In this document: positions 22,469-63,562 of the stretch, piece by piece | How positions within the stretch are numbered: position 1 is the stretch's first letter | Layout: every line of letters begins with the position of its first letter | Assembly (NCBI GenBank): GCA_000467715.1 | Contig: AJFK01000715.1 | Coordinates: 1 to 64,000 of the forward strand | Origin: Hysterium pulicare CBS 123377 | Taxonomy: Eukaryota; Ascomycota; Dothideomycetes; Hysteriales; Hysteriaceae | Direction: 5' to 3' | DNA length: 64,000 bases | The notes under the pieces: model-generated | Database searches by the model: none | Told to the model about the DNA's origin: nothing | The model's input: only the letters and a program-made list of their open reading frames with translations | Made by a program: the position numbers and the translations under genes

Positions 22469-22586
22469 GGTCGTGTGGCCCAATGGCAAGGCGCTTGAGT
22501 AGGTCTCCTCGTCTTCCCCAGCGTTTAACTCACTAACGGTTCCAGCTACGAATCAAGAGATTCTGGGTTCGATCCCCAGCACGACC
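22469..22586 (+). tRNA. tRNA-Arg(ACG) interrupted by a 47-nt GT-AG-type insert
   Basis: 5' part 22469-22498 and 3' part 22546-22586. Joined, they give a complete cloverleaf of 71 nt: acceptor GGTCGTG/CACGACC, D arm with GCCC..AGGC, anticodon stem CTTGA/TCAAG, loop CTACGAA (anticodon ACG, U33 and purine 37 present), T arm CTGGG-TTCGATC-CCCAG. The A box (TGGCCCAATGG) and B box (GGTTCGATCCC) are both intact and T-runs that would end Pol III transcription follow at 22595-22600 and 22604-22612. The insert sits between nt 31 and 32, not at the canonical 37/38. Confidence 0.88.
22499..22545 (+). other. non-canonical intron-like insert in tRNA-Arg
   Basis: 47 nt. It begins GTAGGTCTCCTCG, contains TCACTAAC (a textbook fungal branch site) ending 9 nt or so before the 3' boundary, and ends TTCCAG. 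These are the marks of a short fungal spliceosomal intron rather than of a tRNA-endonuclease intron. The start, branch sequence and end are shared with the insert in the tRNA-Ile gene at 63490-63541. Confidence 0.75.
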
Positions 22587-22769
22587 TTCACATGTTTTTT
22601 GACTTTTTTTTCGTCTTTTATTCTCTGGGGTTGAAGTAGATATGTCAGGTGTATGTAAAATTCGTTTTGATTTGTTCAAGTGGTGGTGGGTCGGCTAAGT
22701 TGTACATTAAGCGACAATAATAGCGGAAGAATGTCACTAGACTTTACTAACAGCCTTCAAAATGCTAAT

Positions 22770-22930
22770 TTAGATTCTGCAAGTTAGAAAGCAAGTTTGC
22801 TATCCTTAAGCCCTTAGGGTACTCGGAAAGTATTATTTGGAATAGACACTTCCAGACTTGTATCCTACAGCCAAGGAACTCGTAGTACAACGAATATGTC
22901 CCCCCGCCGTGATCCATCGTCGCACCCTCC
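22770..22930 (+). repeat. dispersed ~140-bp repeat, copy 1
   Basis: Shares blocks such as TGCTATCCTTAA, the GACTTGT segment and GTAGTACAACGAATA with three other loci in the window (25535-25690 and 48786-48935 inverted; 28350-28500 same strand). No coding capacity. Copies differ by many substitutions and small gaps, so the family is old. A MITE or SINE relic is possible; terminal repeats were not established. Confidence 0.6.
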
Positions 22931-23608
22931 ACCTCAAATTCCACGAAACGCAATGAAACCGATATATACAGCTATTCAGATGACTACAAGCTCACTAATC
23001 CTAGATCAGTATCATATCTAAGCAGCACGAATGTCGGTTTCGGTGGGTGCCGGGCAACTCTAGTGCTGACAGTTGACCTAGCTCGCTGGTCGCGAAGAAA
23101 TCCATCAACCTTCAGACTTCCAGATTGAGGCTTCAAATCAGAAAGTCGTTGGCGAAAGAACTTTTCGCCTTTCTCGTGTTTATCGAAACCAATAACATCT
23201 CTTTCTCTCAAAGTATATTTCCGTGTAATTGGGGAGGTCATCAACATCATTCCTCCAGGTGTTTGGATGACTAAGAGCTAAGCTTAAATATGTGGTCCAA
23301 CCGTTCAAGGTTTGTCATTGGTCTTCTCGAAAACCCACAGACTGTCAGACTTTCTTTTGAACGAAGATCGAAGGCTGAGCCTCTTCAACTCTTACTTGAG
23401 TTTCGCCAACTGCTTTCCTCTCTCACTTCTTCCAACGCAGGGCATCTCTGGTAAGCATTTAGCGTACTAGCTTATTTTCCCATCCCCATATTGGGTTTTG
23501 TCAGGCGCTCGTTACCTGAGAAGAGAGGGTTTGGTCGTATATAGAATACGACGTCCTTATAAAAATCTCTACAATCTCAGTCATTTGCTCGATACGCCTA
23601 CAGCAAAA

Positions 23609-25520
23609 ATGTCATCTAGCTTCTTCCACCTATTTTCTCTCCGCAATGTCTTGATTTCTGCCCTCGGTTGGGCAACACTCTATATCTTCCGAGTTGCCTA
23701 CCGACTTTTGTTCCATCCATTGGCTAGATTTCCTGGTCCCAAGCTGGCCGCCGCAACTAATTTGTACAATGCGTACTGGGATATTTTGCAACCTGGTCTT
23801 GTCAAACGACTCCCAGAACTTCATAGGAAATATGGTATAGACAACATCTAATCCTGATGCGAGCGAAGTATAGATACTAAAAAATACAGGGCCAATCGTT
23901 CGGATCCAGCCTGATGAGCTACACGTAGCAGACCTGGACTCATACAACCAGTAGCACTTCTCAGATCAACTATACACCTCCCAAACATACTGACAACGTT
24001 TTCAGAATCTTCAGAGTCGGCACGACCTTCGACAAGATTTGGCACGACAACCCCTTCTTAACTGGCTCCCTCCAATCCCTCCAATCCCTCCCTACCGCCA
24101 AAAAGCGTAAAGAATTCCTTAACCCATTCTTCAGCAAGTCAGCCATTTCCAAAGCTGAACCAATCCTCCTCCGCGCAAAATTGCAGCAATTCCTCGATAC
24201 ACTGGATCGCGCAGCCCGCGAGGATAAAAGCAAAGTCGTTGATTTCTTCCTTGCTTTCCGGTGCCTGACTGCCGACACTGTCATGGATTATTGCTTCCAT
24301 TCGGACTTGAATGCTTTAGGGGAGAGGGATTTCCAGTCTAAGACGGTGGAAGCGTTGACGGATGGGTTTGATTTGGCTCTTATACCGACTTATTTCCCGA
24401 ATGCATTTGCGGCGTTTAATAAGTTGGTGTTTGCGATGCCAGAGGGGGTGAGGGAGAAGTACTTTTCGCCGGTATATGGGTTTCAGACTATGCAGAAGGT
24501 AAGTTCCTTACGCGTCTTTTAAGACGCTCCGCATTTCTCTTCGAACATCCTTCGAGAAAGAATGAAGGACCAACTTGGAATTCTTTCTTACTTCTCCAGC
24601 TCGCCCGCGAACGTCTCGATAACATGATATCGAACCCCAAATTGGACTCCACCTCGAACTCTACCCTTCCAACAATCTACACCCAAATGCTCAACCCGGA
24701 TAGCAAGAAAGGCCAAGTTACACCCTCCCGCCGTGACATGATCGCAGATGGAGTACTCATGATCGCCGCGGGAACCGACACAACTGCCAATGCTCTCGGT
24801 CTCCTCGTCTACCACGTGACCCGCAACCCAGGCATCGAGGCGCGATTAGTAAGTGAGCTGAAGAACGCCATGCCTGAAAGGGAGATGCTGCTTGATTCGA
24901 CAGTGTTGGAGGAAGATGGCTTTGTGTATCTCAGAGCGGTGGTGAAGGAGACGCTGAGGTTGGCGTTTGGGGTTCCCGGACGTATGCCTAGGAGGGTGCC
25001 GAGGGGTGGGTGTATGCTTGGGGGAAGATTTGTGCCTGAGGGGGTGAGTTCGTTTGGTGTTTCTTTTACTGCGTAACGATTGAAATGAACGATGCTGATG
25101 TGCATTCAAGACGCGCGTAACGGCATGCATCTACATGCACAACATAAACCTAGACATTTTCCCGGAGCCTTTCAAATTCGATCCAGAACGCTGGCTTTGT
25201 GATCCGGAAACTTACAAGGAGAGAGATAGATATATGCTCTCTTTCTCTCGAGGTTCCAGAGGGTGCATCGGTATTAAGTAAGCAGTCTCTCTCTTTCCCG
25301 TTTCCCCTCCCAAATCCGATTCCTTCCACTTCACTGAGCTAATGTCTCCTGTTTTAGCCTCGCATACACAACGCTTTACCTCACAGTCGCGCATCTCTTC
25401 CGTCGCTTCGAGATCCAAACCGAGGGATACACCACTGCTGAGGATATGGAGTGGAATGACCGGTTCGTGCCTGTGCCTCAAGGGAAGATTAGGGGGTTAG
25501 TAAAGATACGAGAAGATTAA
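23609..25520 (+). CDS. Cytochrome P450 monooxygenase
   Basis: Six exons: 23609-23834, 23890-23950, 24006-24498, 24600-25043, 25111-25277 and 25358-25520, all frame-consistent; 517 residues. N-terminal membrane anchor (residues 11-35, [20 protein letters not shown]) then the hinge [16 protein letters not shown]. The I-helix oxygen-binding motif AAGTDTTAN, the K-helix ExxR motif KETLRL, the PERW motif (FDPERW) and the heme loop [15 protein letters not shown] with the Cys ligand are all present, so the enzyme looks whole. It resembles fungal P450s of secondary metabolism (CYP65-like hinge and PERF/W region), family not assignable here. ER-anchored, needs a P450 reductase. It lies between two inverted copies of the dispersed repeat. 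Confidence 0.95.
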
Positions 25521-25534
25521 TCTGGCTCATCCAC

Positions 25535-25690
25535 GGCGGGCGTCATTATTCGTTGTACTGCGGACTTTTGTAGCGGCACAAGTCGGGAAAGATCTTATTC
25601 CATAAGCTACATTCTGAGTAATTTTAAGGATAGCAACTTGTTTTAACGCTTTTGTACCGAGCTCAAGTCGGCTTTGTAAACTAGAAGTAA
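25535..25690 (-). repeat. dispersed ~140-bp repeat, copy 2 (inverted)
   Basis: The reverse complement aligns with copy 1: AAGTTGCTATCCTTAAAA, CGACTTGT and CAGTACAACGAATAATGAC blocks in the same order, extending to the CGCCGTGGAT end also seen in copy 1. It begins about 15 bp after the P450 stop codon and so probably forms part of that gene's 3' UTR. Confidence 0.6.
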
Positions 25691-26894
25691 AGAAGGCGTA
25701 GGTACAGGCATATACTCTGGAAATGACGAGTTATAACACCCCATATGATCTAGCATGATATATAAAGGTATAACTGATGGGCGTTTGAATTCTAGAGGGA
25801 AGAGATTATTGTACGTTATATAGCGACGATAAAAGCAATGTCAGAGAAGCATCTTGTCAAGGCATACTGTGCCTTCTCTATGTGCGGTAGAATTTGGCTC
25901 TTCTTATCAAAGGTATGTTGGATCCAACGATCTTCGGGACCACGTCAATTTTGCACTGCCATTTTTAGTGCACTCGAGCGACTGCTTCATTTTCCGAGGT
26001 TAGTAAGCAATACCCACTCCGTTGAAAACACCCTCCTCGTAGACAACAAGTTACAGGAACCGAAATATCGACAATTGCAATTTTTTTCGAGGCTTGGAAG
26101 AAGAGCAGTGGCCATGACTAGAGTTCCATTAGTGGCTTACTCTAGCGTCGTCTGTGTGGTGTGGCGGTGTAAGGGTTTAGGAACTCCGGTCGTATCGTAG
26201 GCACCGCGTCCCATATTGCACTGCAATTCGAACGCATGAGAGGCTTCCACATAGCTGCCATTAAATATTCGATGCCTTGAATGTGCTGCAAAGGTATCCA
26301 GACGCTGTTCGCCTGTGGAATCGTGATTTCGGCGTGACCTGTTGGATTGTAGAAGCGTGATTTCTTGAAGACGAACTTTCTAACATAAGCATCCCGTATA
26401 GTTCAAAATCAGCTGCGGCTAACACCTAGGAAACACAGAGGCTTTAGAGTTAAGAGATCGGACGACACGTAGGGATATTTGTGGGAGCCTTGACCCTTTT
26501 ATACGGCGAAGATTAGGCAGAAAATTCACGCGGCAGGAGAGGTGCACTGCAATTTTAGCGCACAAGAGGCTTTCTGCATAGCCACATTAGAAAGGTCGGG
26601 AACGTAGTACAGTCTCACATGAACGGCTGCCTGCCCAGGGGCCTAAAACTTTCTCCAGACCAAAAGGGCTTAGTAGAGGAGGAAATGAGCTACCATAAAT
26701 CTTGAGGAAAACTATGAAAGTCGCAAGAGCTGGTGGAGATTCATACACGGCAGATGAACAAAATGGCCATCGCGGGCTTTCGAGGTCAGCGTAGCATAAG
26801 TAGAAATTGAATTGGTATAGGCAGGTATGCCTCGAATACTGTCTTAGAACTCATTGGGCGAATCCAAGCCTAATTCCACAACCGCCTAACGACA
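25691..26894. other. intergenic DNA with three copies of a second short repeat
   Basis: No gene recognised. Three loci (about 25951, 26216 and 26541) share TTGCACTGC(A/C)A(A/T)TTTTAGC-like cores followed by GAGAGGCTT and CATAGC. Similar tracts occur at the other end of the window (about 1694, 2177, 2477). This looks like remains of one old short repeat family. Confidence 0.4.
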
Positions 26895-27935
26895 TCAGGA
26901 AGGACGAGGCGAATCAGAGTGGTCTTTCTCCATAGACCCTGCAGGGAGCTCTACTGGATTTTCCTGCGTAAGTAGTTCGGAGGTGTTATAGTTCGAAGGC
27001 GATTCTTCCCTATGGACCGCTTTCCCTTCAAGCTCATTGATAACGCTAGTCGACACAACAACTGCACGATACCCAGCATCCTTCTCGCAAGAATGACATA
27101 TTTTCCGTCTACGTAGATAGAACCTCCATCCGCTGAAGGCGCCGACGACCATAACTCCCACGGAGATTCCGACTCCAAGGCCTTCCCTCGCACTCTTGCT
27201 TAGACTGCTTGAGCTTGAGGTCATAGAGACGTTGGCGCTTGGTATAGAACCTGTTGAAGAGGTGGGCCCAGCAGACTCTACCGGTATTGTCGAAGAGGTT
27301 GGAAGCGTGGATTGGAATGCGGTGACAAGATCGAAAAATACCGCCTGAGCTACGAAGGTCAATGTTCCTGCCTGCCCAGCCGCTGGCGTAAGCTTTACAA
27401 GCGCTGAAGTCGACATCAGTGGACCCGTGTATATCGTATCGTTTTTGTCGAAGTCGTTACTTTGGGAAATTATCGTTGAGATGCCACCTTCGCAATCTGA
27501 TAGGGAGCTATCGCTAGTATTCATGCAAGTTGTAATGTTGACGTTCCCTCGAGTGCCACAGGTGTTATCTGCCTGACATCCAGGGGTATGAAGTTTGATC
27601 GAATAGGTTCCCGTGTTGTTGAGGGTGGGTTGGAAGACGGCGGACAGGTTGGCATTAGCTATATCATCTACAGTGCCAAAGAGACTTGCACTGAGGTATT
27701 CCTCGAAGTCGAGAGTCTGATAGTCCACCCATTTGCCATTGTGATAGCTTGCATTGTTGCATACGTCCTGATGTGATTAATTTAGAGTCAGCCGATGGGT
27801 ACTTGGGATCTGTTCAAGACTTACGCTGCAATGCGCGAACGATGTCCCACCGTTAATTTGAGACCATGCCACCTCTGGGATTGAGCAGTAAACTAGGATG
27901 GCGACTATGGCAAGTGAAGACGCGATCAGGCCCAT
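26895..27935 (-). CDS. Secreted/single-pass cell-surface protein with Ser/Thr-rich stalk
   Basis: Two exons, 27935-27825 and 27767-26895, 57-nt intron, 327 residues. An N-terminal signal peptide (MGLIASSLAIVAILVYCS) is followed by a Cys-containing ectodomain with several NxT/S sites (pairs in FAHCSDVCNN, GCQADNTCGT, TTCMNTSDSSLSDCEGG), then a Ser/Thr-rich stalk (about 185-220), one transmembrane helix (LGVGISVGVMVVGAFSG) and an RRRK stop-transfer with a ~75-residue cytoplasmic tail. Architecture is that of fungal cell-wall sensors or mucin-like surface proteins. I do not recognise the ectodomain family. Orientation and topology are inferred from hydropathy. Confidence 0.75.
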
Positions 27936-30091: not shown

Positions 30092-32171
30092 ATGAGGATA
30101 TTCGTTCTCCTGAGTCTTCTTATGTCAGCATCTACAGAGTACCTGACCAATGCCAACGAAGGTCAGCGTCAACTCGTGGACATGAAGTCACTTGAGACTG
30201 ACAAGCGGATAGATTCCGGCGGAGTCACCTCCGACCTAGCTTCCATGCTTCAGGCGCAACCAGTTCGACAACAAGAACTCTTCTCTCATGCTCTACGTAT
30301 AATTCATTCAATGGAATCTTCACCGACGTGCAATCGATTGGCAGCCCTGACATTAATCAACTCGTGTCAATCGCTTGAACAAGCCCCGAACGATACGAAG
30401 CGAAATTCCGAACTAGTGCTAGATGAAGTGAAATCGGAATACGCAGCTAGACTAGCAATCTGTGAACTGATTGGTGCGAAAGCAAACGCACCCCGGGAAT
30501 GCTCAATCCTTGTACCGTCTTCCCGTGCTTGTGGGAAATTTCGTTTGAAGTTTTTATTTCGCCAACCAGAAGCTCATTCTGACAATGAACTATGCTATCC
30601 AGATGCAAGCAACTCACAGTTTGAACAGTGCTTGAGGGCGCTGGAATCAAAACCTCAATGGTGGACGTCATACAGCAATGCGAGGCAAAACGCAGTGGTC
30701 ATGTGCCAAGCGAGCAGGGACGCCATTGAGCGAGGTGAGTTCTTTTTACTCAGCAGTCTCTCACTCTCCCACTCTGAGCCCCCACAACGTTCTTTCTCCG
30801 ATTCTCAATACGAGAATGAACATTGTCCTCCAAAAAAAAATATGTACTGATATCTGTTGGTAGAGGAAAAGCTTTCCATATACAAATCTTTGGCGGACGC
30901 CACGTCTGGTATCTCGGCGGCACTTACAAAATCGATTGAAGAAGCCCAAGCTCGGCTGTCGGAACAAATGGAATTCCTCGAAATGATTCGAGCGTCACAG
31001 ACGGACGTCCTGAAGGACATCAAGAAAGGTCGTGATGAAGCTGTATCCTCCCTTAACCATGTGACCACGGATGTACGTTCGGCAATGCAATCCGTTCTGA
31101 ACATGGTATCGCAGGCATTCATGTCAGCTGAATCTCAGGTAGATGAATTGGACCGGGTAAGTCGACCTCTGAGCAACCTTGTATTTCTTCTGTGCTAACG
31201 GCTTTCTAGTCCATCGTCAAATCCAGGGCGAGCTTTTCCGAGGCCCGCGCTGAACTCGTCGATCTCTTACAGTCAATGGCGCGTTCAATGAGGGAGCATA
31301 CCACATTACAGAATGATCAGCTTCAACTGAACCATGAAAGTGCGCTGGAGATCCAGCTGGCTATTGACACCGTGAGGTCTAATCACATGTATGCCCTCTC
31401 CGAGGCCATTGGCTCTCTTCAAAACGATGTGGTAGGTCTCCGATATCCTACGTTTCTTCGTAGACGAATTGACTGACTTTTTGAAAGCATTTGTCCAGAA
31501 ACTTGATGGCGGAGATGTATGACCGTCAATCTCTTCTCGATGGAGTGAGTCTAACTGTTTCTAATTAACGTTGGATCACTTGGGAATATCTACTGACAGT
31601 CCTGCAGCGCCTCTCCGACTTAAGCGGAGCTTTTGGGACGCTCGAGTCTACTGCAATCAATTTACAGACCACCATCAACGAAACCACTGAAACGATCAAA
31701 TCGATGTCCCTTTTCGGTAGCTTTGGATCCATATCCGGTACCTGGGCAAGCATCATCATCATCCTTATAGGAGCCTGGTTTGCCAGCAAAAGGCTCGCTG
31801 GCTACCTCATCGCCTGCGTAGGCTTGCTATGGCTGACGTACTCTTCCGGGTCTTACGATTGGCTTAGAGGACCTTACCAGATGCTTAGAGGATCTTACGA
31901 GTCTGTAAAGAGCATGGACATTGACTTGAATTCGGCCCTGCACACTCCTTCAAGGACTTTCTGGATCATACTGATCACACCTACCCTCTTCTTGTTTGCC
32001 ATGGCAATACACTATTATGCTCAAAAGTCCTCACTCTACCCCTATCAAGACGAACAAGGCGAAAAGGGAGTTCTTCCAAGTATAGAAACACCGGAGCCAC
32101 CAGCAGCTCCACCACTTCGACCTCAATGGCGCTTCAACCCTTTCTCCTTCTCCTATTCGCCTTTCCGTTAG
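30092..32171 (+). CDS. KAR5: Nuclear fusion protein KAR5/Tht1-like
   Basis: Five exons: 30092-30734, 30864-31156, 31210-31431, 31488-31544 and 31608-32171, all frame-consistent; 592 residues. Signal peptide MRIFVLLSLLMSASTEYL; a Cys-rich lumenal domain (SSPTCNRLAALTLINSCQ, ARLAICELIGAK, CSILVPSSRACGKF, SNSQFEQCLRALESKPQWWTSYSNAR) is the recognisable Kar5/Brambleberry domain; then long coiled coil, and near the C-terminus two hydrophobic segments (WASIIIILIGAWFA / LAGYLIACVGLLWLTY and FWIILITPTLFLFAMAI). Known role: fusion of nuclear envelopes during karyogamy, in the ER/nuclear envelope. Intron 3 (31432-31487) begins with the same ten bases as the insert in tRNA-Arg. Confidence 0.88.
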
Positions 32172-32763: not shown

Positions 32764-34026
32764 CTACTCCTTCGCACTCAGAACACTCTTCACAACCCCA
32801 ATAACCTTCTCATGAACACCACTCGGCGCAGCCACCACGCCCTTATTCTCCTTCAAAGTCCTCCCAATCCCAAAGTCTAGTTTCTTGCCCCACGCATCAG
32901 TAACCTTGCCACCTGCCTCCTCTACAATAACCACGCCAGCCGCATGATCCCATATCTTCTCCTCATACGTCTTGCTGACGGGAAGGCGAAGATACAAGTC
33001 TCCAGCTCCGCGGGCTATACTGCAGTATTTGGCCTGCGAATCCATGCGTACGCTGGGTTTGGAGATGCCGAGTTGAGAGGCGATGGCAGCTTGGTCGCCA
33101 TGGCTCGAGTGGCCAGCTTCTACGCTCTCGCAGAAAGTAGCGGCGGTGATGTCCGAGATGGGTTTCATGAAGATTTTCGCCTCTTTCTGTAATCCTCCCG
33201 CGCTTAAAGGTCTTGAAGTGGCGCCCTGGCCATTTATCGCGGCGAATAAGACACCTTTCCCCTCTGCGTCGTCTGCATCGGCGCCGATAGTTGATGTGAG
33301 GAGTGCGGAGTCATCGACTGGCAAGTTCGGACACCCGATTACGCCGAGTGTAGGCTCGCCATCTACAAGGAGCGCCAGACAAACAGCGTACTGCCCTCCA
33401 CGCAGAAAACCTTTCGTTCCATCTATAGGATCGAGCGCCCATATTCTTCCCGATCTCCCTCCTTTACTCCTCCCTGCATCAATGGCCTCCAACATAGCAT
33501 CCGCATCCTTGATCGGCCCACCAAGCTCTTCCTCCGCCGCCGTATCCTCCAACTTCGCCTTCTGCACCAAGTCCCAGACTAGATCTCGAAGGGAGGGATT
33601 GGAACGGAGGTCATCCGCATCTTCCTCGCCTACGATTTCGTCGGATGGGAAGTTGTGTTTTATAGCGGATATGATCAAAGCTTGAGCGCCGAAGTCGCCG
33701 ATTGTGACGGGCGAGGAGTCGGATTTTGAGAGAGTGCCTTTTGTGTGGGAGTTGTAGACGGAGCGGGTTAGAAGGGTGGCGCGTTGGACGGCTAGGGAGG
33801 CTATTCGGAGCTCTTTTGAGTAGTTGGAGGACATTGTGGTGACTCTGTAGGGTCTGGAGGTGATTATAGGGAGGGGTTTGAATTGGGATGTGAGGTGGGT
33901 AAGTCGAGTCGTGGCACGGGAGAGGAGGGAGGAGAGAGGTGGAGTGGTGACAGCCAGGATGAGGAGGGATAGGAGAAAGAGGATATATGGGAAGTACAAT
34001 TGAGTACGCGGTTGAGTACGAGGCAT
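32764..34026 (-). CDS. MET22: 3'(2'),5'-bisphosphate nucleotidase (MET22/HAL2-like)
   Basis: Single exon. Core signatures of the lithium-sensitive phosphatase family: SPVTIGDFGAQALI, VGEEDADD (first metal-binding Glu pair), WALDPIDGTKGFLRGGQY (DPIDGTKGF metal site) and WDHAAGVVIVEEAGGKVTD. It hydrolyses 3'-phosphoadenosine 5'-phosphate to AMP, needed in sulfate assimilation and salt tolerance. From the ATG at 34026 the protein has 420 residues and carries an N-terminal hydrophobic stretch (LYFPYILFLLSLLILAV) absent from the soluble yeast enzyme; from the internal ATG at 33834 (MSSNYSKELRIA) it has 356 residues, the normal family length. Both starts are possible and could give two locations. 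Confidence 0.93.
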   Translation of the reverse strand: MPRTQPRTQLYFPYILFLLSLLILAVTTPPLSSLLSRATTRLTHLTSQFKPLPIITSRPYRVTTMSSNYSKELRIASLAVQRATLLTRSVYNSHTKGTLSKSDSSPVTIGDFGAQALIISAIKHNFPSDEIVGEEDADDLRSNPSLRDLVWDLVQKAKLEDTAAEEELGGPIKDADAMLEAIDAGRSKGGRSGRIWALDPIDGTKGFLRGGQYAVCLALLVDGEPTLGVIGCPNLPVDDSALLTSTIGADADDAEGKGVLFAAINGQGATSRPLSAGGLQKEAKIFMKPISDITAATFCESVEAGHSSHGDQAAIASQLGISKPSVRMDSQAKYCSIARGAGDLYLRLPVSKTYEEKIWDHAAGVVIVEEAGGKVTDAWGKKLDFGIGRTLKENKGVVAAPSGVHEKVIGVVKSVLSAKE

Positions 34027-35831: not shown

Positions 35832-36084
35832 GGAATGAAGCATAAACGGGATGGGTGCTGAGTGGTTCTTGGACTACCTCATGGCGCCACGTCATACCTA
35901 GGTAGCTTGGTGAACTAGCAGAAACTAATGACAAAGCGCCCTTATCGATTCCAAGGTTGCTACTTCAACCTGTTCATAGGAGAATTGACCTGCAAACCTA
36001 TACTACTCCAATTTATAATCATCAAACCGGACGCTCAATGCTTCCACCTAAATCCCAGAATAAAGAAGCGGGCCCACGGCCGCT

Positions 36085-47402: not shown

Positions 47403-48557
47403 CTACTGGAGTTGTCCGAGCTCCATTTCGTTGACAGAGGTGGCATAATTGAATTTGAACTTCAGGGTCTCCCCTTGAACGTTCTCGAGGAGAATATAGT
47501 CCTCCCCTGTTGAGGCAGCCGCGAGGTTTCCTAAGGTGCTTCCAATGGAATCTCCACCCACAATCCGGATTTGACACACAAGCCGGAAATCAGATGATCC
47601 CAATGAGCTGGGATAATTTCTTGCTCGATAACAAACAAAAACTATGCCGGAATCGAATTCCACGTGCGTTTCGTCGCGCGGTCTCCAACATTCGTAAAAG
47701 TTGGTCTCTCGGATTGGTCCAATGGGAACTGCTAACTGTAGGACGTGTTCTTCCTCGTCAGGGCCATTCCGTGCCGAAATTGTGAAACTCACTGGATGGT
47801 CAGTTCGCGAGGAATTGACTTGTAGATCATGGTGCCAAAGATCGTCCCAGCGCATTGCAAGGTCCTCCTCAGCTGACATTGGTGGCGCCGCTTGTTCATA
47901 CCGTGATCGACGGTACCTCATTACTTCAGCCCATTGCTCGAGGGAGATTCTATGATGCGTATTAGCTAGATGCAAGATTTGTGACGCGACATTGAACTCC
48001 AAAGCTGCTTCGCTGGCAAGCCAGCTGCCTGGTGACAGATGCTGCCGCACATATTCTGTTACTGGCTCTATAAGAACATTCCAGCGTCCTCGGGACTCAG
48101 GTTCTACGACTTGTTGAAAGTGTTCTTGGAATCCTTGCGACGACAGTTCCATCAATTCTTCATAAACGTCCATGAATCGAAGATCATCATCGGACTCGGA
48201 CCAATTTTCAGTATCTTTATCCTTGTACCAAAGGACGCGACGACAGCTCGGGCAGGTATTGTTGTTGTCATTAGAGGAATTAAACCAACCTAGGATGCAG
48301 TCTTTGTGAAAGACATGCTGACAACCTGCAGTATGCACGATTTCTATATCCGAGATCTCAGGCCAGTCCATGTAACAGATTGGACAATAATCATCCTTCG
48401 GAGAAGTAGTGATCAAGTGGTAAAGTGTATACTCTTCCTGCGTGATATGGCCGATGCTAGTATTTCCAGCCATTCTCGTAGATATCTGATGATTGGGTAA
48501 TTTGAGTGAAGTATTCGGAGAAGTTCGGAACGATGCGGGAAAGGAGGAACGAGTCAT
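47403..48557 (-). CDS. RING-H2 finger protein (copy A)
   Basis: Single exon, 384 residues from the ATG at 48557, or 356 from the ATG at 48473 (MAGNTSIGH). A complete RING-H2 finger lies near the N-terminus: CPICYMDWPE, then CQHVFHKDCILGWF and TCPSCRRVLW, giving the C-C-C-H-H-C-C-C pattern of an E3 ubiquitin ligase. An acidic linker and a ~230-residue C-terminal region (LASEAALEFNVASQILHLAN, ISLEQWAEVMRYRRSRYEQA, EDYILLENVQGETLKFKFNY) follow, shared with the genes at 51109 and 55646. The region upstream of MAGN is also conserved in copy B (SPNTSLK), which supports either translation or recent duplication of the leader. Substrate unknown. Confidence 0.85.
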   Translation of the reverse strand: MTRSSFPASFRTSPNTSLKLPNHQISTRMAGNTSIGHITQEEYTLYHLITTSPKDDYCPICYMDWPEISDIEIVHTAGCQHVFHKDCILGWFNSSNDNNNTCPSCRRVLWYKDKDTENWSESDDDLRFMDVYEELMELSSQGFQEHFQQVVEPESRGRWNVLIEPVTEYVRQHLSPGSWLASEAALEFNVASQILHLANTHHRISLEQWAEVMRYRRSRYEQAAPPMSAEEDLAMRWDDLWHHDLQVNSSRTDHPVSFTISARNGPDEEEHVLQLAVPIGPIRETNFYECWRPRDETHVEFDSGIVFVCYRARNYPSSLGSSDFRLVCQIRIVGGDSIGSTLGNLAAASTGEDYILLENVQGETLKFKFNYATSVNEMELGQLQ

Positions 48558-51108: not shown

Positions 51109-52275
51109 TCAACGGCTGTAATCGAACGTAAACTTAAGGGTCTTCCCTCGAACGTTCTGGAAGAGAATGTAGTTCTCGCCAACTGTCGCAGTCTCAAGAT
51201 CCCCTAAGGAGTCCCTATCACGAATTGCTACGTCCTCACGAATCGTAATAGCTTGTCGTTCTGGATGCACGACATCCTCGGCCCAACTGAAATGTGTGGA
51301 TCCTTCCTCCGGTGCCCAATCTTCATAGACTTCGTTGAGGTCGAGGGACACGATGGGAAATGGGATGCCCGCCTCTAAGACACGTTCTCTATGGCCGAAT
51401 TCAAGCAACGAAATAGTGATAGTCTCAGGGTCGTCATCTCTTGAAAATATTCTTGCTAGACTTCCGCTCCAGCTATTACTCCAATTTATAGCAGTGATCT
51501 CTTCGGGCGACGTAGGTACCAACGCTTGTTCGTACCGTACCCGGCGGTAGCTGAATAGTCTAGCCCATTGTTCGAGCGGAATCGTGCGCTTATCTTCAGC
51601 TACGCTCATGATCTCGGAGGTGATTCCGAACTCTAAAGCTGCCTCGCTGGCGCGCCATCCACGCCTCCGCACATATGGCAATGTTGACTGTACAAGCGCA
51701 ATCCAGTTTCCTTCCAACGCAGTCTCTAAAAACTGACGATGGAGGTCTGGGAGAGCATCCCTCAACTTTCTATACACTAGACTGCTAGGCCACCAATCCC
51801 GCTCGCGCTCGTCGTCGCTAGCGTCCTCGTCTACTCTTTCGTACTCGTCGTCGCTCTCGAACATAGCGTCATCTGCGCTATCGTCCTCCTCTTCGGTATC
51901 TTGATCCTCGCCCCATAGAGCGCGACGACATGATGGACAAGTATTATTGTTCTCGTTGGGGGAATCAAACCATCTTAAGACGCATTCTTTGTGAAAGGCA
52001 TGCTGACAATCTGTAGTTTGTACGACTTCTAAATTTGGAGTCTCGGAATAGTCCAGGTGACAAATTGGACAATCGTCTTCTGGTGATGGAACGATGACTA
52101 AGCCGGTACGGATGTATTCTTCCTGCGCGGAAAAACCGGTATTAGGAGTGTTTCCAGACATTTTCGTAGTTGTGTGGAGCTTTTGGAGCTTTGGGTGCTC
52201 TAGTGCCTTTGACGATTTAAGTGAAGTGTTCGGAGAATTTTGGAGAAAAAGGGAGAAAGAGTGACCAAACGTCAT
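51109..52275 (-). CDS. RING-H2 finger protein (copy B, paralogue of 47403-48557)
   Basis: Single exon, 388 residues from the ATG at 52275, or 350 from the ATG at 52161 (MSGNTPNTG). RING-H2: CPICHLDYSE, CQHAFHKECVLRWF, TCPSCRRALW. A longer acidic linker follows (EDQDTEEEDDSADDAMFES), then the shared C-terminal region (RASEAALEFGITSEIMSVA, IPLEQWARLFSYRRVRYEQA, ENYILFQNVRGKTLKFTFDY). It parallels copy A from leader to stop, showing tandem duplication with the hydrolase gene trapped between. Predicted E3 ubiquitin ligase; intact. Confidence 0.85.
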   Translation of the reverse strand: MTFGHSFSLFLQNSPNTSLKSSKALEHPKLQKLHTTTKMSGNTPNTGFSAQEEYIRTGLVIVPSPEDDCPICHLDYSETPNLEVVQTTDCQHAFHKECVLRWFDSPNENNNTCPSCRRALWGEDQDTEEEDDSADDAMFESDDEYERVDEDASDDERERDWWPSSLVYRKLRDALPDLHRQFLETALEGNWIALVQSTLPYVRRRGWRASEAALEFGITSEIMSVAEDKRTIPLEQWARLFSYRRVRYEQALVPTSPEEITAINWSNSWSGSLARIFSRDDDPETITISLLEFGHRERVLEAGIPFPIVSLDLNEVYEDWAPEEGSTHFSWAEDVVHPERQAITIREDVAIRDRDSLGDLETATVGENYILFQNVRGKTLKFTFDYSR

Positions 52276-52797: not shown

Positions 52798-54460
52798 TTA
52801 CAAATGATCGACCCTGCCCAACACCCATTCTAGATACCTGTAGGTGACCCTAGGTTGGAATTGTGGTTGCATATGGCCAGACTGGTAGGTCTCAGCCCAC
52901 ATGAGTCCGCGCTCATAATGCTGAATGCCCATTATCCCTTGCGGGCCATCGTAACCCCCCACATAAAGGCCGTTGTCCGAGTTGTTGAAAATGCCCTCGT
53001 ACTGCAAGTCCGGTTCCGTGATATTGATCGGAGTAGATGGCATCGTTTGGAAACCTAGCATCCCGTTCCATGTCATGTTTTGGATAGACAGGAGGGTTCC
53101 ATTGGTGATGATGATCATATCGTAGTCACCATTGGACACGAGAACACGATTTGTTGCCTCAATGACCTGGGGTAGAACCTTCTGAATTGGGTCAGCGGAC
53201 GTGTCGGGCTCTTCCTCCGGTCCAGGCGAGGGGCTGACGAATACGCTCTCGACCGCGCATTCCATCCAATCAACGTATTGGGGAGCGTGGAGGGCAGTCT
53301 TGACATCTGTCCGATTGAAGTAAAGCTGGCCGGAGCCCTCTGGGGAGTATACAAGTTCAGTCGGGAAGCCGAGAACGTCCCAAAGGAGGGGACACATCTG
53401 GTTAATCTCGTATATATCGAAACAAGGATTGGGGTCGAAGGCAGCCTCGTTGATCAAGTCGAAGACATCACAGCTCGCGTTAGCTGTGTAGTTGAAGAAA
53501 ACCGGTGGCTGGACACCACTCGGTGGAAATGTCAAATATTTCTCGAGATAGTCCGCATAGCCACAAGACTCGTGTAGACCCTTGATTGTACTCATGAAGC
53601 TCGCATTGAAATTGAAAAGATTAGCATTAGCTTCCACGAATGGAATTGCAGGTACTTCTTCCTGGGTGTAGTCGAAATCACCAATACAGGGATCAAAAAC
53701 GAGGGCACCAGAGAGGTCAAAGTACTCGGTGGAGTTTTGATCCAGCATTGCCGCTGAGATATAGGGAACATAGCGGCCAGCGTAGCTTTCTCCAGTAACG
53801 TAGATCTTGAAATCCTTGATACCGAAGATGTCTTCCCAATTTTTGAAGAAATTCACGAAGTTGTGGGCTGTTTCTTCTTGGGTTGTAGCCTTCGGAGTGC
53901 CGATTGAGAAGCCCGTACCAATTGGTTGATCTACCCAGAGCATATTTGTTAAGTTTACCTTGAGGCAGGGTCAGTACGTAGTAAACTTGGAAGTTGAGAG
54001 GGCCTTCACATACCCAGCTGTAATCATTTACTACAGGTCTGTATGTTCCAGGCGGCCAGACAAAACGCCCGTTCTCCTGGAAGAACCCCTCGAGGGAACT
54101 ACACCCAGGGCCTCCGTTCAACCAAATGGTAATTTCATCGACGGGTGCTCCAAGCTTTGGTTGGAAGATGAAAAATAGAGCTTCTGAAGTGTTGTCGTAG
54201 TTGATTGGGACCAAGCCTGAATACATCTCGCCAATATCATATGGCACTTCCGGCAAATGTTTCACCTTGTAGGGCTTTGTGGCATTTGTTAGGAAACGCG
54301 GATGTGTCGTGGTTCGTTTCTCGGGATGGCTAACTTCCTCTCTGGCCGAGGGATTGCGCAACGATAAATGATCCCTAGCGCGCTGGCCGAATCTACCATG
54401 GCCAGCAGTTACGGCACCGAGCAAGGTCGAGCTCGCGAGGAGCAACAAGAACGACTTCAT
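52798..54460 (-). CDS. Secreted serine carboxypeptidase (family S10)
   Basis: Exons 54460-54014 and 53958-52798, 55-nt intron; 535 residues. Signal peptide MKSFLLLLASSTLLGAVTAG. Substrate-binding motif WLNGGPGCSSLEG, then LWVDQPIGTGFS restored across the splice, catalytic Ser in VTGESYAGRYVPYIS, catalytic Asp in VLVSNGDYDMII, and catalytic His in YQSGHMQPQFQP. Start chosen at 54460 because the signal peptide begins there; the ATG at 54496 adds 12 hydrophilic residues. Predicted extracellular or vacuolar carboxypeptidase active at acid pH. It belongs to a stretch rich in secreted hydrolases. Confidence 0.94.
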
Positions 54461-57399: not shown

Positions 57400-58191
57400 A
57401 TGCTTCCTACCATGGGCGCAGCCCTCGGGGCGTTTACCATCATGATGGGAATGCTCACCTCAGTGTCGGCGGAGTGCACCCGCGATGGACTTCTAGCAGC
57501 GGCCAATAGCTACATAGCGGCCCAAACCAGCGGGAAACTCGATGGGCTCAAGTTGGTCGCCGACAATTTCACCTACCAAGAGAACAACAAGGTGATAGAC
57601 ATCAAAAAGGGCGTAATCGTCCAGCCATTGAAGATCGACCTCAATCGCTCCACGGCGGATACTGTGGCCTGTGCCAGTTACACAATGATAATTTCGAGCA
57701 GCGGCTCCAAGCCCTACGTACTGGCGACGCAAATCCGGCATAATGGAGATGATACGAGCTCTATTTCCATGATTGATACGATAGCTGCGACCACTGGCTC
57801 CTTGTTCTTCGACGCAAGCAAGACGCTTGGGTATATCAAGCAGGAGAACTGGGGCCCGGTTTCAGGGAACGTATCGAGTCGGGAACTGCTCAAAAAGGTC
57901 GGAGATGCATACCTTGATATGTGGACTGATGCCAAAGCGGCGGACACAATTCCTTGGGGAACGAATTGCGAGCGTGTTGAAGGATCGAGGCTGACTAAAC
58001 CGTGTGGTGGTTCGCTCCCGCATGGTGGAAGTTCCAAATCGAACTCGATGCGGCGCTATGTTATTGACGAGACAGTTGGTTCGGTGGATGTGCTCTGTGC
58101 TTTTAACTCTTTGGGGAACATGCCTGACAGCCATGAGATCCGTCTTGAGGATGGAAAGGTGAAATATGTGCATACGGTGACGGTTGAGTAG
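57400..58191 (+). CDS. Secreted protein, DUF8021-like
   Basis: Single exon, 263 residues. The signal peptide (hydrophobic 5-24, AALGAFTIMMGMLTSVSA) is cleaved before ECTRDGLLAAANSYIAAQTS, the usual start of this fungal secreted family; DNFTYQENNK, the central DxxxC and the terminal WGTNCERVEGSRL ... LCAFNSLGNMPDSHEIRLEDG also fit. ATG at 57400 or 57412. Function unknown; related domains occur in fungal NTF2-like enzymes and secreted proteins. Normal length for the family as I recall it. Confidence 0.75.
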   Translation: MLPTMGAALGAFTIMMGMLTSVSAECTRDGLLAAANSYIAAQTSGKLDGLKLVADNFTYQENNKVIDIKKGVIVQPLKIDLNRSTADTVACASYTMIISSSGSKPYVLATQIRHNGDDTSSISMIDTIAATTGSLFFDASKTLGYIKQENWGPVSGNVSSRELLKKVGDAYLDMWTDAKAADTIPWGTNCERVEGSRLTKPCGGSLPHGGSSKSNSMRRYVIDETVGSVDVLCAFNSLGNMPDSHEIRLEDGKVKYVHTVTVE

Positions 58192-58382
58192 GATAATATA
58201 GTTGCCTGGAAAACATCTTCGCTCGTTAGGGAGACTTGAATACCATGACTATTGTGCTAAAACTTCAAGACTATTAAGGACAAAAGGAGACTGATACCAG
58301 TATGAACAGATCAATAGGAAGCCGCAGACAATGTATATTCTCAACCATCTGACCAGTCATCATCATTGGAGTAACTATTAGA

Positions 58383-59333
58383 TTATTCATCATCGTCGTC
58401 GTCATCATCGTCGTCGTCATCATCGCCGTCGCCGTCATCGCTCTCCGAATCGGACATTTCGTCGCTATCAATCTGTTTGCGTACCTGGAGAGAATGATAT
58501 GTGTCACCCGCAAAGAGTGAAAACAAATAACGGGATGACTTACCATCTCGATATAATTTTGGAGTGCCTTTGACCATTCGTTGCCCGATAGTCCGCAAAT
58601 GGCTGTGATGTCGTTGGAATGAAAATTGCAAGGATAATGGTCCACTTCATTACCAATCTTCTTTCTCCAAATCCTTGAGGATAGGATATATGGCTTCCAG
58701 TATCATTTTCAGCTTTTTTGACGAATACTCTGTGATGACTATCTCTATGAAAAGTCCGTTCTTGTGCTCGACCTTGAATATATGCATCAAGTCTGTACGT
58801 AATCTGTCGACACTATCCACAGGAAAACCGACTGCCCCCACTTCCAGTGCAAGATGGTGAACGAACTTAGCTGGCAAGTCGCCCAAGCCGTTATAGTCTA
58901 GATTAATGAGAAAGCTCAGGTGCTCAGTGTTACGCACTTGAAAGATGTTCGTTCGGTACAAGGGTTCTGCCACTTTGGTGGCAAAGCCAGGACCAACGAA
59001 TGATGGAAGCAAGTAATGAGGTAGTTGGAAAGGCTTATATGCCTGAGCAAAGAGAGGGCATGAATTTCTAGGAGGACCATCCACTGGGATCATCTGGTCC
59101 TCAGTGGCAAGGCATTCATACACCCTGTCTCGCAACTGGCGCGGAAAAGTTGAATAAAGTTTGCTTTGTGAGATCTAGGCATGACTTTTGGGCATAAAGC
59201 TCAGCTTCTTTGTTAAGTTCTCTGCCTAAAGTGAGTCAAGTGCCCATCGCTGTGAGCCTGCAAGTACAGACCTAACAACAGGTTTGCTTTTATTCCTCCA
59301 TTCGTCGGCTTCTTCTTTAGACTTCTTCAACAT
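58383..59333 (-). CDS. Hypothetical protein with poly-Asp tail; exon structure does not close
   Basis: Pieces in order: MLKKSKEEADEWRNKSKPVV (ATG 59333), a good intron, then RELNKEAELYAQKSCLDLTK; a frame change; STFPRQLRDRVYECLATEDQ...LKMILEAIYPILKDLEKED (59150-58655); GLSGNEWSKALQNYIEM (58602-58544); and VRKQIDSDEMSDSESDDGDG plus a run of Asp codons (58484-58383). STFPRQLRDRVYE resembles the start of fungal F-box-like '2EXR' proteins. Splice signals around the last exons are good (GTAAGT..CTCCAG), but frame is lost at about 59150 and at the 58654/58602 junction. Either a decaying gene or one with unusual splicing. I do not recognise the function. Confidence 0.4.
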
Positions 59334-60301
59334 GAAAAGTATAAGTTGCTTGAGAGTTTCGACACCGCAAAGTATTAGTAGTCTTACTGAGATGCGATGT
59401 AAACAAGATACGCTTGTAACCTAATGTTAAGTGAGCGAAGTTCGTATCCGCGTCTAAAAATGGCTAGAATACCGCTAACTAGCATACGCGTTTATCTGAA
59501 GAATGTATACCATTCTCAACATTAGAAGGCCGCGCACGCTTCATGTCTGCTTTCTACGCTCTAGAAAGCTTAGACGTTGGAGTGGAATATTATGTACCTA
59601 GGGTAAAATCGTTTCGGTGCAAGCAGTGTCGTGTAGTGCACGATCTCCGCTGGAAGTGCGGCTTGTCCCAAACTACGAAATAAATCCAGGCCTGCACAAC
59701 CACCTTACTAAGTTACGATGTGACTAAAATATACCCGGCCCGCCCATTACACTACCACACTACCTAGGTACCTGGGTAACGTAGGTGTTTTTTGTTCCCA
59801 AAGGTAAAGCGTCAGATTAAGATCAGATGAAGCTCATGTAGTGAAGCTCTATTATCCACCCAAGATTGGGAAAGATAGTAGACCCATACGATTGGGTTTC
59901 CCACTGGACCGGATGGAAGTTCTTAGTTGTCTGTTACTGAAGAGCTACTGTAATTGCGCACTAACTGGATACAGCATCACGTTGGTCGCGCTCCAGGACC
60001 TCGCGAATGGGATCTGGAAGACGGAAGTGGACTGATGAGTTGCCTGGACTTCTGCTTGGGCTGGTATGGCAATTATAACCGGTCGATTTAGATATTAATA
60101 CCTTTAGGAGAATTGGTCTAGGGACTATTAACGAAACTGAGTGGGTCGAGGGGACAAACGACAGCTCATAACGATTATTTGATTCACCTCTGCACTTCTA
60201 ATAATGTGGAAAAATCATGGCTATTCAATGAACGTGCTGGTCGGCGCTCGAACAGCGCCGACCCAGAAAAGATCCCCGCAGGCTAAAACCGAGTTCGACA
60301 C
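59334..60301. other. intergenic region
   Basis: 968 bp. Contains the palindromic string TACCTAGGTACC at about 59761-59772, a motif type frequent in ascomycete intergenic DNA and also at 44194-44208. No gene. Confidence 0.4.
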
Positions 60302-61873
60302 TCAAACATAGATGTAGCAGAATTTCCCATTGAAGCCTCCAATATTGTTCAACAAGTCTTTCAAGTAAGCCCTCGGTGCAGACCACTCAAGATCCACAAC
60401 ATCGTCTGCGGGAGCGGATCCCGGAAATTTGTCCATACGGTTCGCAGGGTCTTGCATTTGCCAAATCCACCATATGCGATCAACCATGCCGTGATGGAAC
60501 CAGAAAACAGGGTCACCTGGAGATGAAAAGAAGTCCTGCTAAGGGTTAGGATATGCGTAGGATAGATACTGCGGCTGTCGAATCGAATGTACTTACACCG
60601 CCTGGATCACCGCCAATGGTGTAGTGTCCACCAGTATGAACGCCCCAATCATTATTTTTGGGGATACCTAGCATGTTGTTTTGGAAGGTGTCAACGTCTT
60701 TGGCCTCTTTGATCAAAGCATACGTGTAGTTGGCATGGGTAACGGCAGCAGAGTATTTGTTCACGTCGCGTCGAAGGCACCGAGGGTTGGAGGCGAAACC
60801 ATCAAGTTGGGGATTCTTCGGCACGTCTGTCAGCACGGTCTGTAGGGGTCCGAGGCTGATGGTCATGCTTTCGTGGACATTAGCATCTAACAACATCAAA
60901 GGAGTGAAGAAGGAGTTTACTTCTTGAAGGGCCCCTCAGTTACGCATCCACCGCCCCCAGCTGCTGGGATTACGTCGTATGGTTTTTTGAAACCGTTAGT
61001 TTGCTTGACTCCTGGATAAGTAGCTGGACCACCATTACCGCCCATACTGGAATCGTTTCCATTAAAGAGAGGCGAGTTGATTGGATCGGAAGCGTAGCGA
61101 CCCCAGTTCCAGTACTAGACCTCAACATCAGAAATCTGGGTTTATTCAACCTGCGGAGACCATATCGACCATGGACTTACAGGTTGGTAGCCAGTATAGC
61201 CACACTCTTCACGGAGAGCTTTCTCATACGCCCAGATGTACAAGCGGTGCGCGGCGAAGAAATGTTCCTGAATACCAAGAGTATCAGCAGGTGGATCTCA
61301 CATGAACCTTAGACAGGCCAACTTACCGTTGAATGAAGGTGAAAGGCCTGCTTGATGTGAGTGGCTACAAAATCGTCGTAACGATTAAGTGCGCCAGGGT
61401 AATCTTTCCTTGGTGACTTTGGCGGCTTGGACTGCAGACATAGTACCGCTCGAATGTATTCTTTTCTTTGCGGAATCGAAAGATCGCTCCTGGATATCAA
61501 GTTAGCTCGGGTATTCTCATTTCTTGCTAGATCCCCAGGCAGCTAGCCGTAAGTTAAACGTTGAGATTCATACCATTCATATCTCTTAGCTGCATTCTCA
61601 AGTGTACACGTTGAGTTAGACGCGGTTGTGGACGCATTCTTTGTGAGATAAGCCTCAAATTTGCTCAGGCTAGCCAACGCTAGATTATCCACTTCATCGA
61701 GTGGGTAAGGGCCATCGGATCGCCTAAAATGGATGCTCAGTCAGCGAGCTGCTCTGGGTGACGGTTTGGAATCAGAAAGTGTACCGTTCTAGTGTGAACT
61801 TCTTCCCAACTGGACTTGCCACTGCCCCAGTAACGATCGAAGAAATCAGGAGAGCCCAATACGTGAACACCAT
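60302..61873 (-). CDS. Tyrosinase-family copper oxidase, secreted
   Basis: Seven exons: 61873-61785, 61723-61574, 61489-61327, 61267-61181, 61114-60921, 60867-60597 and 60535-60302; every junction keeps frame; 395 residues. Signal peptide MVFTYWALLISSIVTGAVA. CuA site: FHLHSTEHFFAAHRLYIWAYEKAL, with the histidines split by an intron. CuB site: WGVHTGGHYTIGGDPGG and SPGDPVFWFHHGMVDRIWW. YWNWGRYASDP and VTEGPF are typical of short fungal tyrosinases. It has no long C-terminal shielding domain, so it belongs with the ~400-residue secreted forms. Reaction: o-hydroxylation of phenols and/or oxidation of catechols to quinones. Confidence 0.93.
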
Positions 61874-63438
61874 CTTGAAGCAGGTCTGGCTTCAGCACTG
61901 CGGTTGGAAGGAGTGTATCAGCAAACTTTCACCTGTATCCTAGCGGGCACCACGGTCGCAGCGGGCAAGCCTTTCTAATAGCCATCACGGTAACACAACC
62001 ATGGAGTGCTGATTGCTAGACGCGCACAGCGCTCGCAGAGAGGCCATGACCTGCCGTATGTGCCGAACGAAGTAATTACAAGGCATGGCCGAATCAGGGA
62101 ATTTCAATATGTAGTGATTGTGGACTAATGGCTCACTGCCAAGTAGCCAATGGAAAGTTTACCACTTGAGCGATCCCTTTAAGCTCGATATGAAACCTTC
62201 CTAGAGAAGTAGGGGGGATGCTTTGGTTGAGATGTCCATCCAAAGTTGTACCTACATTGATATATTAGCTAGCCAATCATAAAGAGAGCGGGGATTTTAC
62301 CCCAGAGTATCGACTTGGCACCCTAAAGAGGGGCCACTGTGACGAGCTCGGCAATTGAATTGTCGGGTTTTCAACGAGAGCATAGATACGCGATTGGTTC
62401 TTTAACGAGAGACAGTAATTGCCAACCTTATCTCGACTGAAAGAGTGTGTGGGGCTTTATAAGCAGAGGGCTCGTGGGCCAAGATCTAGAAACGACGATC
62501 GACCCAAGACGAATGCTTGAGTTGGCATAGAAGTGAAAGGTGTCTATGTGAAGTGATGACGTTCTTTAAAGAAGAAGTCGGGGGTGCGAAGTCAGCGACG
62601 AGAAATCAGACATGAATCCCAATGCTAGTGACTGTGTAGGCGGAAACCGATCTACATGGTTAGTCTTTTATTTCTCGGCCAGTGACTCCCATATGTACTA
62701 AAACATACCGCTACTCCACTCGTACATCGAATTGCAGGAAGACTTTGATTGCTCCCCATGGGAGACAAGGCATTGTGCCAAAGGCTTGGTCGATCGTGTC
62801 GTCCCAAAGATGGAGCGATTGAAAGCGCAAGGAAAGAAGGGTTCTATAGCCGTCTGGCACTGGAAAGAAAACTGAACAGATCTCGTCCATGCCTACACAT
62901 CTCACATGCTCTTGGGTCTGTCAACCGGTATATTCTTCCATAATATACAGACCCTTGGACAACTCTTCTTGCAGAAGAAACCTGAGCCCAAGTCGAAACT
63001 GTCATTGGGAACCAGACGTAGATCATGGCGAGAAGGTTGACGCCGGACATATGGTTTCTGCGACGAGGAAAATGCTGATCTGCAAAGGACGCCCTGACGC
63101 GAACTTCAACGCAGCGCTCCGGCTTGGCAGCCTCAAGATTCGGTGCAGACCTGTCGCTCTATGAAGCTTATTTGAACGCCACCTCACTTACTTTCCAATC
63201 TAATTTCGGATCCGTACTCGTGCTTTTAAGTCTTCAAATGTATTGCTAAACTGTTGTTTGACTTGCTCTAAAGCGCCGTGGAACGATGTCTCCTTCTCTC
63301 AATCGGCTTCATGCGGGAAGAGCAGATGCATTTTAAAAAATGTCCAATAGTATAATACTCAGCCTTTCATTGCATGTACCTAATTCTACATTGCAAAAGA
63401 TCTTGCAGAGTAAAAAACAAACGACAAAAAAATTCAAT
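61874..63438. other. intergenic region between tyrosinase and tRNA-Ile
   Basis: 1.6 kb. The left part is the tyrosinase promoter. Two minus-strand open frames at 62711-63050, one starting with a signal-peptide-like stretch (LLAMIYVWFPMTVSTWA), could be a small secreted protein but do not join cleanly; not called. Confidence 0.4.
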
Positions 63439-63562
63439 GGTCAGCATGGGGATCGAACCCATGACCTTGGCGTTATTAGCACCACGCTCCTGCGAGACTT
63501 GTTAGTGACATTCAACATAATCGTGCCTCGGTGAGACCTACTACCGACTAAGCTAGCCGACC
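63439..63562 (-). tRNA. tRNA-Ile(AAT) interrupted in the D-loop by a 52-nt GT-AG-type insert
   Basis: 5' part 63562-63542, 3' part 63489-63439. Joined they give 72 nt: acceptor GGTCGGC/GCTGACC, D arm GCTT-AGTCGGTA-GAGC (fully paired only after removal of the insert), anticodon stem TGGTG/CGCCA, loop CTAATAA (anticodon AAT), T arm ATGGG-TTCGATC-CCCAT. A box TAGCTTAGTCGG and B box GGTTCGATCCC are intact; a T7 run follows the 3' end (63432-63426). The insert lies between nt 21 and 22, where fungal tRNA introns are not expected. Confidence 0.88.
63490..63541 (-). other. non-canonical intron-like insert in tRNA-Ile
   Basis: 52 nt. Starts GTAGGTCTCACCG, contains TCACTAAC 12 nt or so from the end, and ends CTCGCAG. 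The first nine bases, the branch-like octamer and the CAG end are the same as in the tRNA-Arg insert at 22499-22545, while the middles are unrelated. Confidence 0.75.

Follow-up and report, generated by a model that had tools for sequence, protein, structure and literature searches.

Spliceosomal introns are regarded as a feature of genes transcribed by RNA polymerase II (Pol II); the few exceptions include U6, U3 and ribosomal DNA (rDNA). Here we describe two transfer RNA (tRNA) genes, tRNA-Arg(ACG) and tRNA-Ile(AAT), each interrupted by a GT-AG insert, in a stretch of 64,000 bases from the dothideomycete fungus Hysterium pulicare CBS 123377 (bases 1-64000 of contig C478, hereafter the window; the genome assembly comprises 37.2 Mb in 596 contigs), together with further tRNA genes of the same genome that bear such inserts. 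Judged by their signals and by the tRNAs that they interrupt, these inserts are very probably U2-type spliceosomal introns in tRNA genes transcribed by RNA polymerase III (Pol III).

Nuclear tRNA introns are generally assigned to the tRNA endonuclease and mostly lie at position 37/38 (PMC4090602). The tRNA introns of nucleomorphs and of Cyanidioschyzon merolae resemble the present inserts in lying outside 37/38 and in occurring several per gene, but they are ascribed to the tRNA endonuclease, the insertions of Guillardia measuring 3-24 nucleotides (nt) (PMC4090602), whereas those found here measure 47-78 nt and have spliceosomal signals; the string 'spliceosom' occurs nowhere in that paper. 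Canonical 37/38 introns are present in the same genome as well, but they keep to one fixed site and follow no GTNNGT, CTAAY or AG rule. Precedents of spliceosomal type are the introns of fungal U6 small nuclear RNA and U3 small nucleolar RNA, where introns of messenger RNA (mRNA) type likewise interrupt a small structured RNA. The splice sites of U3 introns are those of ordinary pre-mRNAs, and apart from U3 and U6 no small structured RNA has so far been known to be interrupted often (PMC5832005). Unlike those cases, the hosts here are tRNA genes of many isotypes, with up to two inserts per gene, at scattered positions and beside canonical tRNA introns. The spliceosomal introns of ascomycete rDNA are also of mRNA type and lie in structural RNA genes, although rDNA is transcribed by RNA polymerase I, and reverse splicing has been proposed for their spread in Pezizomycotina (PMC11889510). 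Fungal introner-like elements are reported to supply new spliceosomal introns in Dothideomycetes, whereas a search with 15 of the present inserts found no copies elsewhere in the genome. In the literature searched, which lay outside preprints and most subscription papers, we met with no account of nuclear tRNA genes that contain spliceosomal introns, and those reported here are likely to be new to the literature.

The unspliced tRNA-Arg(ACG) gene spans 22469-22586 (+), as read from the sequence and by ARAGORN with introns allowed. Exon 1 (22469-22498, +; sequence reading, joined-exon search and T-arm scan) is followed by a 47-nt insert (22499-22545, +; GTAGGT...CTCACTAAC...CAG), whose GT-AG ends are among the top cuts of a cloverleaf test and which separates the 5' strand of the anticodon stem from the anticodon loop, and then by exon 2 with an intact B box (22546-22586, +; sequence reading and pattern search). 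A TATA-like word (22432-22436, +) stands 37 nt upstream, and a Pol III terminator-like run of six T follows at 22595-22600 (+). The unspliced tRNA-Ile(AAT) gene occupies 63438-63562 (-; Rfam RF00005, 48.1 bits), with exon 1 and its A box at 63542-63562 (-; sequence reading and joined-exon search), a 52-nt insert in the D loop at 63490-63541 (-; GTAGGT...GTCACTAAC...CAG; cloverleaf cut test) and exon 2 at 63438-63489 (-), where the B box is intact and a canonical 37/38 intron is lacking. TATATA (63603-63608, -) stands 46 nt upstream, and a terminator-like run of seven T is located at 63426-63432 (-). The shared insert ends of this pair are real: as an earlier note on this DNA had described, both inserts have in common the start GTAGGTCTC (22499-22507, + and 63533-63541, -), the branch-site-like octamer TCACTAAC (22530-22537, + and 63501-63508, -, with the putative branch A 9 and 12 nt before the insert end, respectively) and a CAG end.

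ARAGORN reported no tRNA in the whole window, and an Rfam search of the window called the Ile gene and not the Arg gene. With introns allowed, ARAGORN identified the cut-out Arg region as tRNA-Arg (acg) and placed its intron, i(31,47), at precisely 22499-22545, but misread the unspliced Ile gene as Glu; with the inserts removed, it called tRNA-Arg (acg) and tRNA-Ile (aat). A scan of the window for a T arm, a terminator, a matching acceptor and an A-box-like start gave the Arg and Ile genes and no other.

For the rest of the genome, tRNA candidates were taken from the RF00005 profile (27 matches at E <= 10, 22 over the cut-off; 63 of 1229 candidates scored), from B-box patterns (55 places; 81 with a terminator; 84 of the A52-T62 form) and from one D-arm pattern chosen without regard to introns (three places genome-wide). 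All 55 B-box places were read closely, as were five additional places, 14 terminator or A52-T62 places picked by eye, one place from a joined-exon search and one new place from the D-arm pattern; eight of the 19 additional and eye-picked places were not tRNA genes. The census is incomplete, because some isotypes remained unfound and most terminator and A52-T62 places were judged from their matched letters only. Within it we recognised by eye 37 tRNA genes and a provisional one (L094), and 12 of the 37, about a third, possess 14 GT-AG inserts away from 37/38 (13 of 38 genes and 16 inserts if L094 is counted), the other 25 having no insert or solely one at the canonical site. As far as can be read by eye, eight of the 12 high-confidence genes also have a canonical 37/38 intron, and some tRNA genes combine two GT-AG inserts with a canonical intron.

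These inserts are distributed over the D arm, anticodon stem, variable loop and T arm, and their positions vary among tRNA families. By our count, the Arg insert marks the 31/32 border of the anticodon stem and loop, and that of Ile is shared in placement by Trp-CCA (L090; D loop). Others occur in the T loop at 58/59 (Ala-AGC, L034), at 53/54 (Lys-TTT, L032, and Gly-CCC, L031), in the variable loop (Gly-TCC, L024), in the anticodon stem at 28/29 (Leu-AAG, L061), in the D stem near 24-26 (Ala-CGC, L089) and at 26/27 (Pro-TGG, L108). Two genes have two inserts each: Thr-TGT (L037) at 26/27 (Thr-TGT.1) and in the T stem at 51/52 (Thr-TGT.2), and Val-CAC (L087) in the D stem at 11/12, inside the A box (.1), and again in the D stem near 24-26 (.2). 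The Pro-TGG gene was the one new tRNA gene obtained from the intron-blind D-arm pattern, and it too bears a GT-AG insert. L094 has a Leu/Ser-type D arm and a clear GT-AG insert; the gene and its two inserts are treated as provisional because the anticodon arm could not be settled. Its second insert, like that of Gly-TCC, is visible on direct reading of the sequence. The class of spliceosomal-like introns in tRNA genes put forward in the earlier note thus extends well beyond the window, since such inserts are present in many more of this genome's tRNA genes; the note would have abandoned the idea had no other tRNA of the genome or its relatives contained them, and other recognised genes do.

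Several places were not counted as tRNA genes. Five of them (L027, L029, L030, L033 and L076) make up a dispersed family of tRNA-like sequences of Asp type (GTCGGTGTAGTYTAGTGG...GACCCAGGTTCRATTCCTG). Their anticodon arms vary, several members resemble one another in the letters upstream, and they may be pseudogenes or a repeat derived from a tRNA. In L044, a D-arm-like start and a T-arm-like end enclose a stretch in which TAGGCTGGTAGGTCAGTCAC is repeated, present twice, and no tRNA could be built from it. L028, L074, L075, L107, L088 and L097-L103 were likewise set aside.

A GTNNGT start and an AG end are present in all 16 inserts (14 high-confidence and two provisional), the latter as YAG in 15. 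CTAAY with its branch A 8-14 nt before the end is found in 13 of the 16, compared with a mean of 0.48 and a maximum of 4 for shuffled interiors (5000 trials), and CTRAY is found in 14. The lengths are 47-57 nt, with one of 78 and a median of 51. Beyond the window pair, the inserts start with GTAAGT, GTATGT, GTACGT, GTGAGT, GTCAGT or GTTGGT. Strong constraint by one removal machinery, which the earlier note had offered as one of two explanations, fits this GTNNGT/CTAAY/AG pattern.

The boundaries also agree with tRNA structure. In a cut test, every cut of 30-99 nt was scored by cloverleaf pairing and conserved bases, blind to GT and AG, and the GT-AG cut was among the top-scoring ones for 13 of the 14 high-confidence inserts (1682-2214 cuts each; 5-16 GT-AG cuts per insert in a run of 13 inserts, Pro-TGG being scored separately). 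Apart from Trp, one to six cuts were tied at the top, including six of 1682 for Arg and four of 2214 for Ile, where the cut can slide by one base. For 12 genes (L094 included, Pro left out) ARAGORN gave the expected anticodon in eight after splicing versus three unspliced, the unspliced forms giving a wrong call for four and no call for five. It accepts most cuts shifted by 1-3 bases and therefore cannot fix the insert boundaries. The RF00005 profile at E <= 1 reported three of ten unspliced intron-bearing loci and both control loci; L024 and L061 were over the cut-off, and L031, at 28.8, was just under it.

The exact words shared by the window pair do not characterise the class. The earlier note held their sharing to be beyond chance, and this stands for GTAGGTCTC (four matches in the window versus 0.34 expected) but not for TCACTAAC, which alone is not enriched (three versus 1.68), nor for the pair once the splice signals are held constant: with the opening hexamer, the branch pentamer and the closing trinucleotide of the insert fixed in the shuffles, the alignment of the Arg and Ile inserts was not above them (32.5 vs 28.5 +/- 4.5, P = 0.20; 20,000 shuffles). 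A genome-wide scan returned nine places with GTAGGTCTCNNCG, versus 23 for a reversed control, and among the eight of these nine that were read only the window's two fall in tRNA genes. These counts and the shuffle result rule out the shared 9-mer as a class signature; since the window pair is no more alike than shuffles, it is GTNNGT...CTAAC...AG that matters rather than the exact words. Among 105 pairs of 15 inserts (200 shuffles each), z exceeded 3 for two, Gly-CCC/Thr-TGT.1 (3.7) and Ile-AAT/Thr-TGT.1 (3.1); both contain Thr-TGT.1, whose CTAAG was left unfixed in the shuffles, and we give these pairs no interpretation. Two more GTAGGTCTC words occur in the window at 31432-31440 (+) and 52885-52893 (+), both outside tRNA genes.

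Several of the interrupted genes seem to lack an uninterrupted counterpart. The joined exons of Arg-ACG matched only the window locus, in two pieces, and those of Ile, Lys, Gly-TCC, Leu-AAG, Val-CAC, Ala-CGC, Trp and Gly-CCC matched only their own loci, so that no intronless copy was found for nine genes at the sensitivity used (the Leu-AAG query contained one extra T, and that of L094 a wrong start). The same search found an intronless Ala-AGC paralogue whole, and also a damaged piece (L107, C78:92403-92445) that corresponds to the 5' half of tRNA-Ala(AGC) and is probably part of a pseudogene. The joined exons of Thr-TGT matched nothing, not even their own locus, and are therefore uninformative on this point. 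No other Trp-CCA gene was seen in the incomplete census, and intronless copies may be missing from the assembly.

We propose that Pol III would transcribe the precursor tRNA through the insert, and that the spliceosome, recognising GTNNGT, the CTAAY branch site and the AG end, would take the insert out as it does from mRNA. The joined exons would then fold into a tRNA, whereas the tRNA endonuclease and ligase would remove canonical 37/38 introns in a process of their own; the order of the spliceosome and endonuclease pathways and a one-by-one origin of the introns are matters that we infer. It is probable that several essential tRNAs depend on the spliceosome, that some pre-tRNAs pass through both pathways and that tRNA genes are open to intron gain, perhaps by reverse splicing. 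If so, the spliceosome serves essential Pol III transcripts on a large scale and tRNA supply is tied to splicing capacity. Such genes would also provide many short sites with a fixed exon structure, in which intron gain and loss could be read base by base, and would account for the genes that standard tRNA finders overlook in such genomes, as ARAGORN did in the window.

Three other explanations were considered, and group I and group II introns were excluded, since at 47-78 nt the inserts are too short for a catalytic core of hundreds of bases. The tRNA splicing endonuclease might cut the inserts at unusual sites, as has been proposed for red algae, the GT-AG appearance being incidental. This enzyme is indeed held responsible for the tRNA introns of nucleomorphs and Cyanidioschyzon, which lie outside 37/38 and can number several in one gene (PMC4090602), and canonical introns often accompany the inserts in the same genes. 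However, a structure-reading enzyme is not expected to yield GTNNGT and AG in 16 of 16 inserts and a placed CTAAY in 13, and none of the 14 high-confidence inserts lies at the endonuclease-type 37/38 site. In a crude test of how well the insert's 3' end pairs with the end of exon 1, the mean for 15 inserts was not above shuffles (3.60 vs 3.90; 0.93 of shuffles reach it), whereas for 14 canonical introns it was slightly above them (4.21 vs 3.76; reached by 3.8% of shuffles), a weak signal. We consider this explanation very unlikely. Still less credible is the notion that the interrupted genes are unused pseudogenes hit by spliceosomal introns: Ala-AGC does have an intact paralogue, and second genes of other sequence exist for Ile-AAT (L092) and Gly-CCC (L015), but the nine genes without a detected intronless copy include Trp-CCA, and the exons keep full stems and terminators, those of the interrupted Ala-AGC being identical to the intact copy (72/72).

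An introner-like mobile family that copies one intron into tRNA genes, the common origin that the earlier note had offered as its other explanation, is to our minds equally hard to sustain. The window pair has 9 + 8 bases in common, two of the 105 insert pairs exceed z = 3, and Dothideomycetes are reported to have introner-like elements (PMC4457414). Searched against the genome at E <= 10, however, 15 inserts (Pro-TGG not among them) matched only their own 12 loci, although old, diverged copies would escape such a search; the starts differ among inserts, the window pair is no closer than its shuffles, and both high-scoring pairs involve the insert with the unfixed CTAAG. At the single site tested, that of Ala-AGC, a clean 50-nt insert distinguishes one copy from the other without target duplication, and the 300-nt flanks of the two copies have no convincing similarity (best 21.4 bits). 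As far as these two sequences indicate, the pair is compatible with reverse splicing, by which an intron is inserted into RNA, or with a precise loss of the insert from one of the copies, but not with a duplicating transposon. According to a review of intron gain, reverse splicing has been demonstrated solely in non-physiological settings, and never into a site other than the original one (PMC3443670).

Some observations weigh against U2-type spliceosomal introns as the explanation, or limit its reach. The evidence consists of DNA sequence; excision, lariats and mature tRNAs are predictions made from it. The tRNA identities were mostly assigned by eye, with Rfam scores helping for some, and the incomplete census yielded no gene for Asn, Asp, Cys, Phe, initiator Met or several other isoacceptors; 13 tRNAs used as queries for the missing isotypes gave no gene for any, which does not establish that these isotypes are absent. 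CTAAY is lacking at its place in Thr-TGT.1 (CTAAG), Ala-CGC (TTAAT) and Pro-TGG (CTGAC). Before the cut test, the other insert of a gene and its canonical introns had been taken out by hand; 29 cuts tie at the top for Trp, and Gly-TCC, with its insert in the variable loop, fails the test by half a point. After splicing, ARAGORN gave unexpected calls for Gly-CCC, Thr, Trp and L094. The Ile-AAT and Gly-CCC genes may be dispensable because second genes exist, and a TATA-like word was seen upstream of just five of 11 placed genes (Arg, Ile, Leu-AAG, Val-CAC and Ala-CGC). Five U6 matches over the cut-off (47 of 2278 candidates scored) are 97-107 bases long and therefore contain no intron-sized insert. 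The predicted mRNA introns of this genome appear to agree with the tRNA inserts in signals and length, but they were derived from reading frames in 302,500 bases and not from transcripts. A stricter search found none and the first search was too noisy; after the criteria were relaxed, 46 of 782 candidates had CTAAY near the end (18 of 126 starting with GTRNG and 28 of 656 others), and the 18 listed introns of 49-109 nt, some of them alternatives at one site, had been chosen for having both motifs.

A run of at least five T lies 1-39 nt downstream of all 11 placed genes (L094 included, Gly-TCC left out), and none of them has an internal run of more than four T, numbers that are too small to claim depletion. 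In Lys-TTT, the AG end of the insert preserves the B box on its 3' side; an AG end before TTCGA gives the B-box-like AGTTCGA, so that insert ends can keep promoter boxes readable. The idea that the 53/54 inserts supply a new B box from the 5' side was dropped, the matches not exceeding shuffles (Lys P = 0.11, Gly-CCC P = 0.24).

A few further pieces with similarity to T arms or B boxes were noticed beside Pol III genes. Directly behind the Trp-CCA gene (L090, C536:49650-49930) there is a second B-box-like GGTTCAAATCC, perhaps a partial T-arm duplicate. About 100 nt downstream of tRNA-Thr(TGT) (L037, minus strand), a second T-arm-like GGTTCGATTCC is preceded by TTTCTAAC...TTTAG; this piece resembles another 3' splice site and exon, and could be a damaged duplicate. 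Two of the five U6 genes (L104 and L105) were read, and each is followed by GGTTCGAG, which resembles a downstream B box. Among the protein-coding parts of the window, the open reading frame at 32764-34026 (-) encodes a HAL2-type nucleotidase with 75-76% identity to Pleosporales proteins (Trematosphaeria, Zopfia), and the neighbouring reading frames at 47403-48557 (-) and 51109-52275 (-) have similar RING-type cysteine patterns, perhaps reflecting a local duplication.

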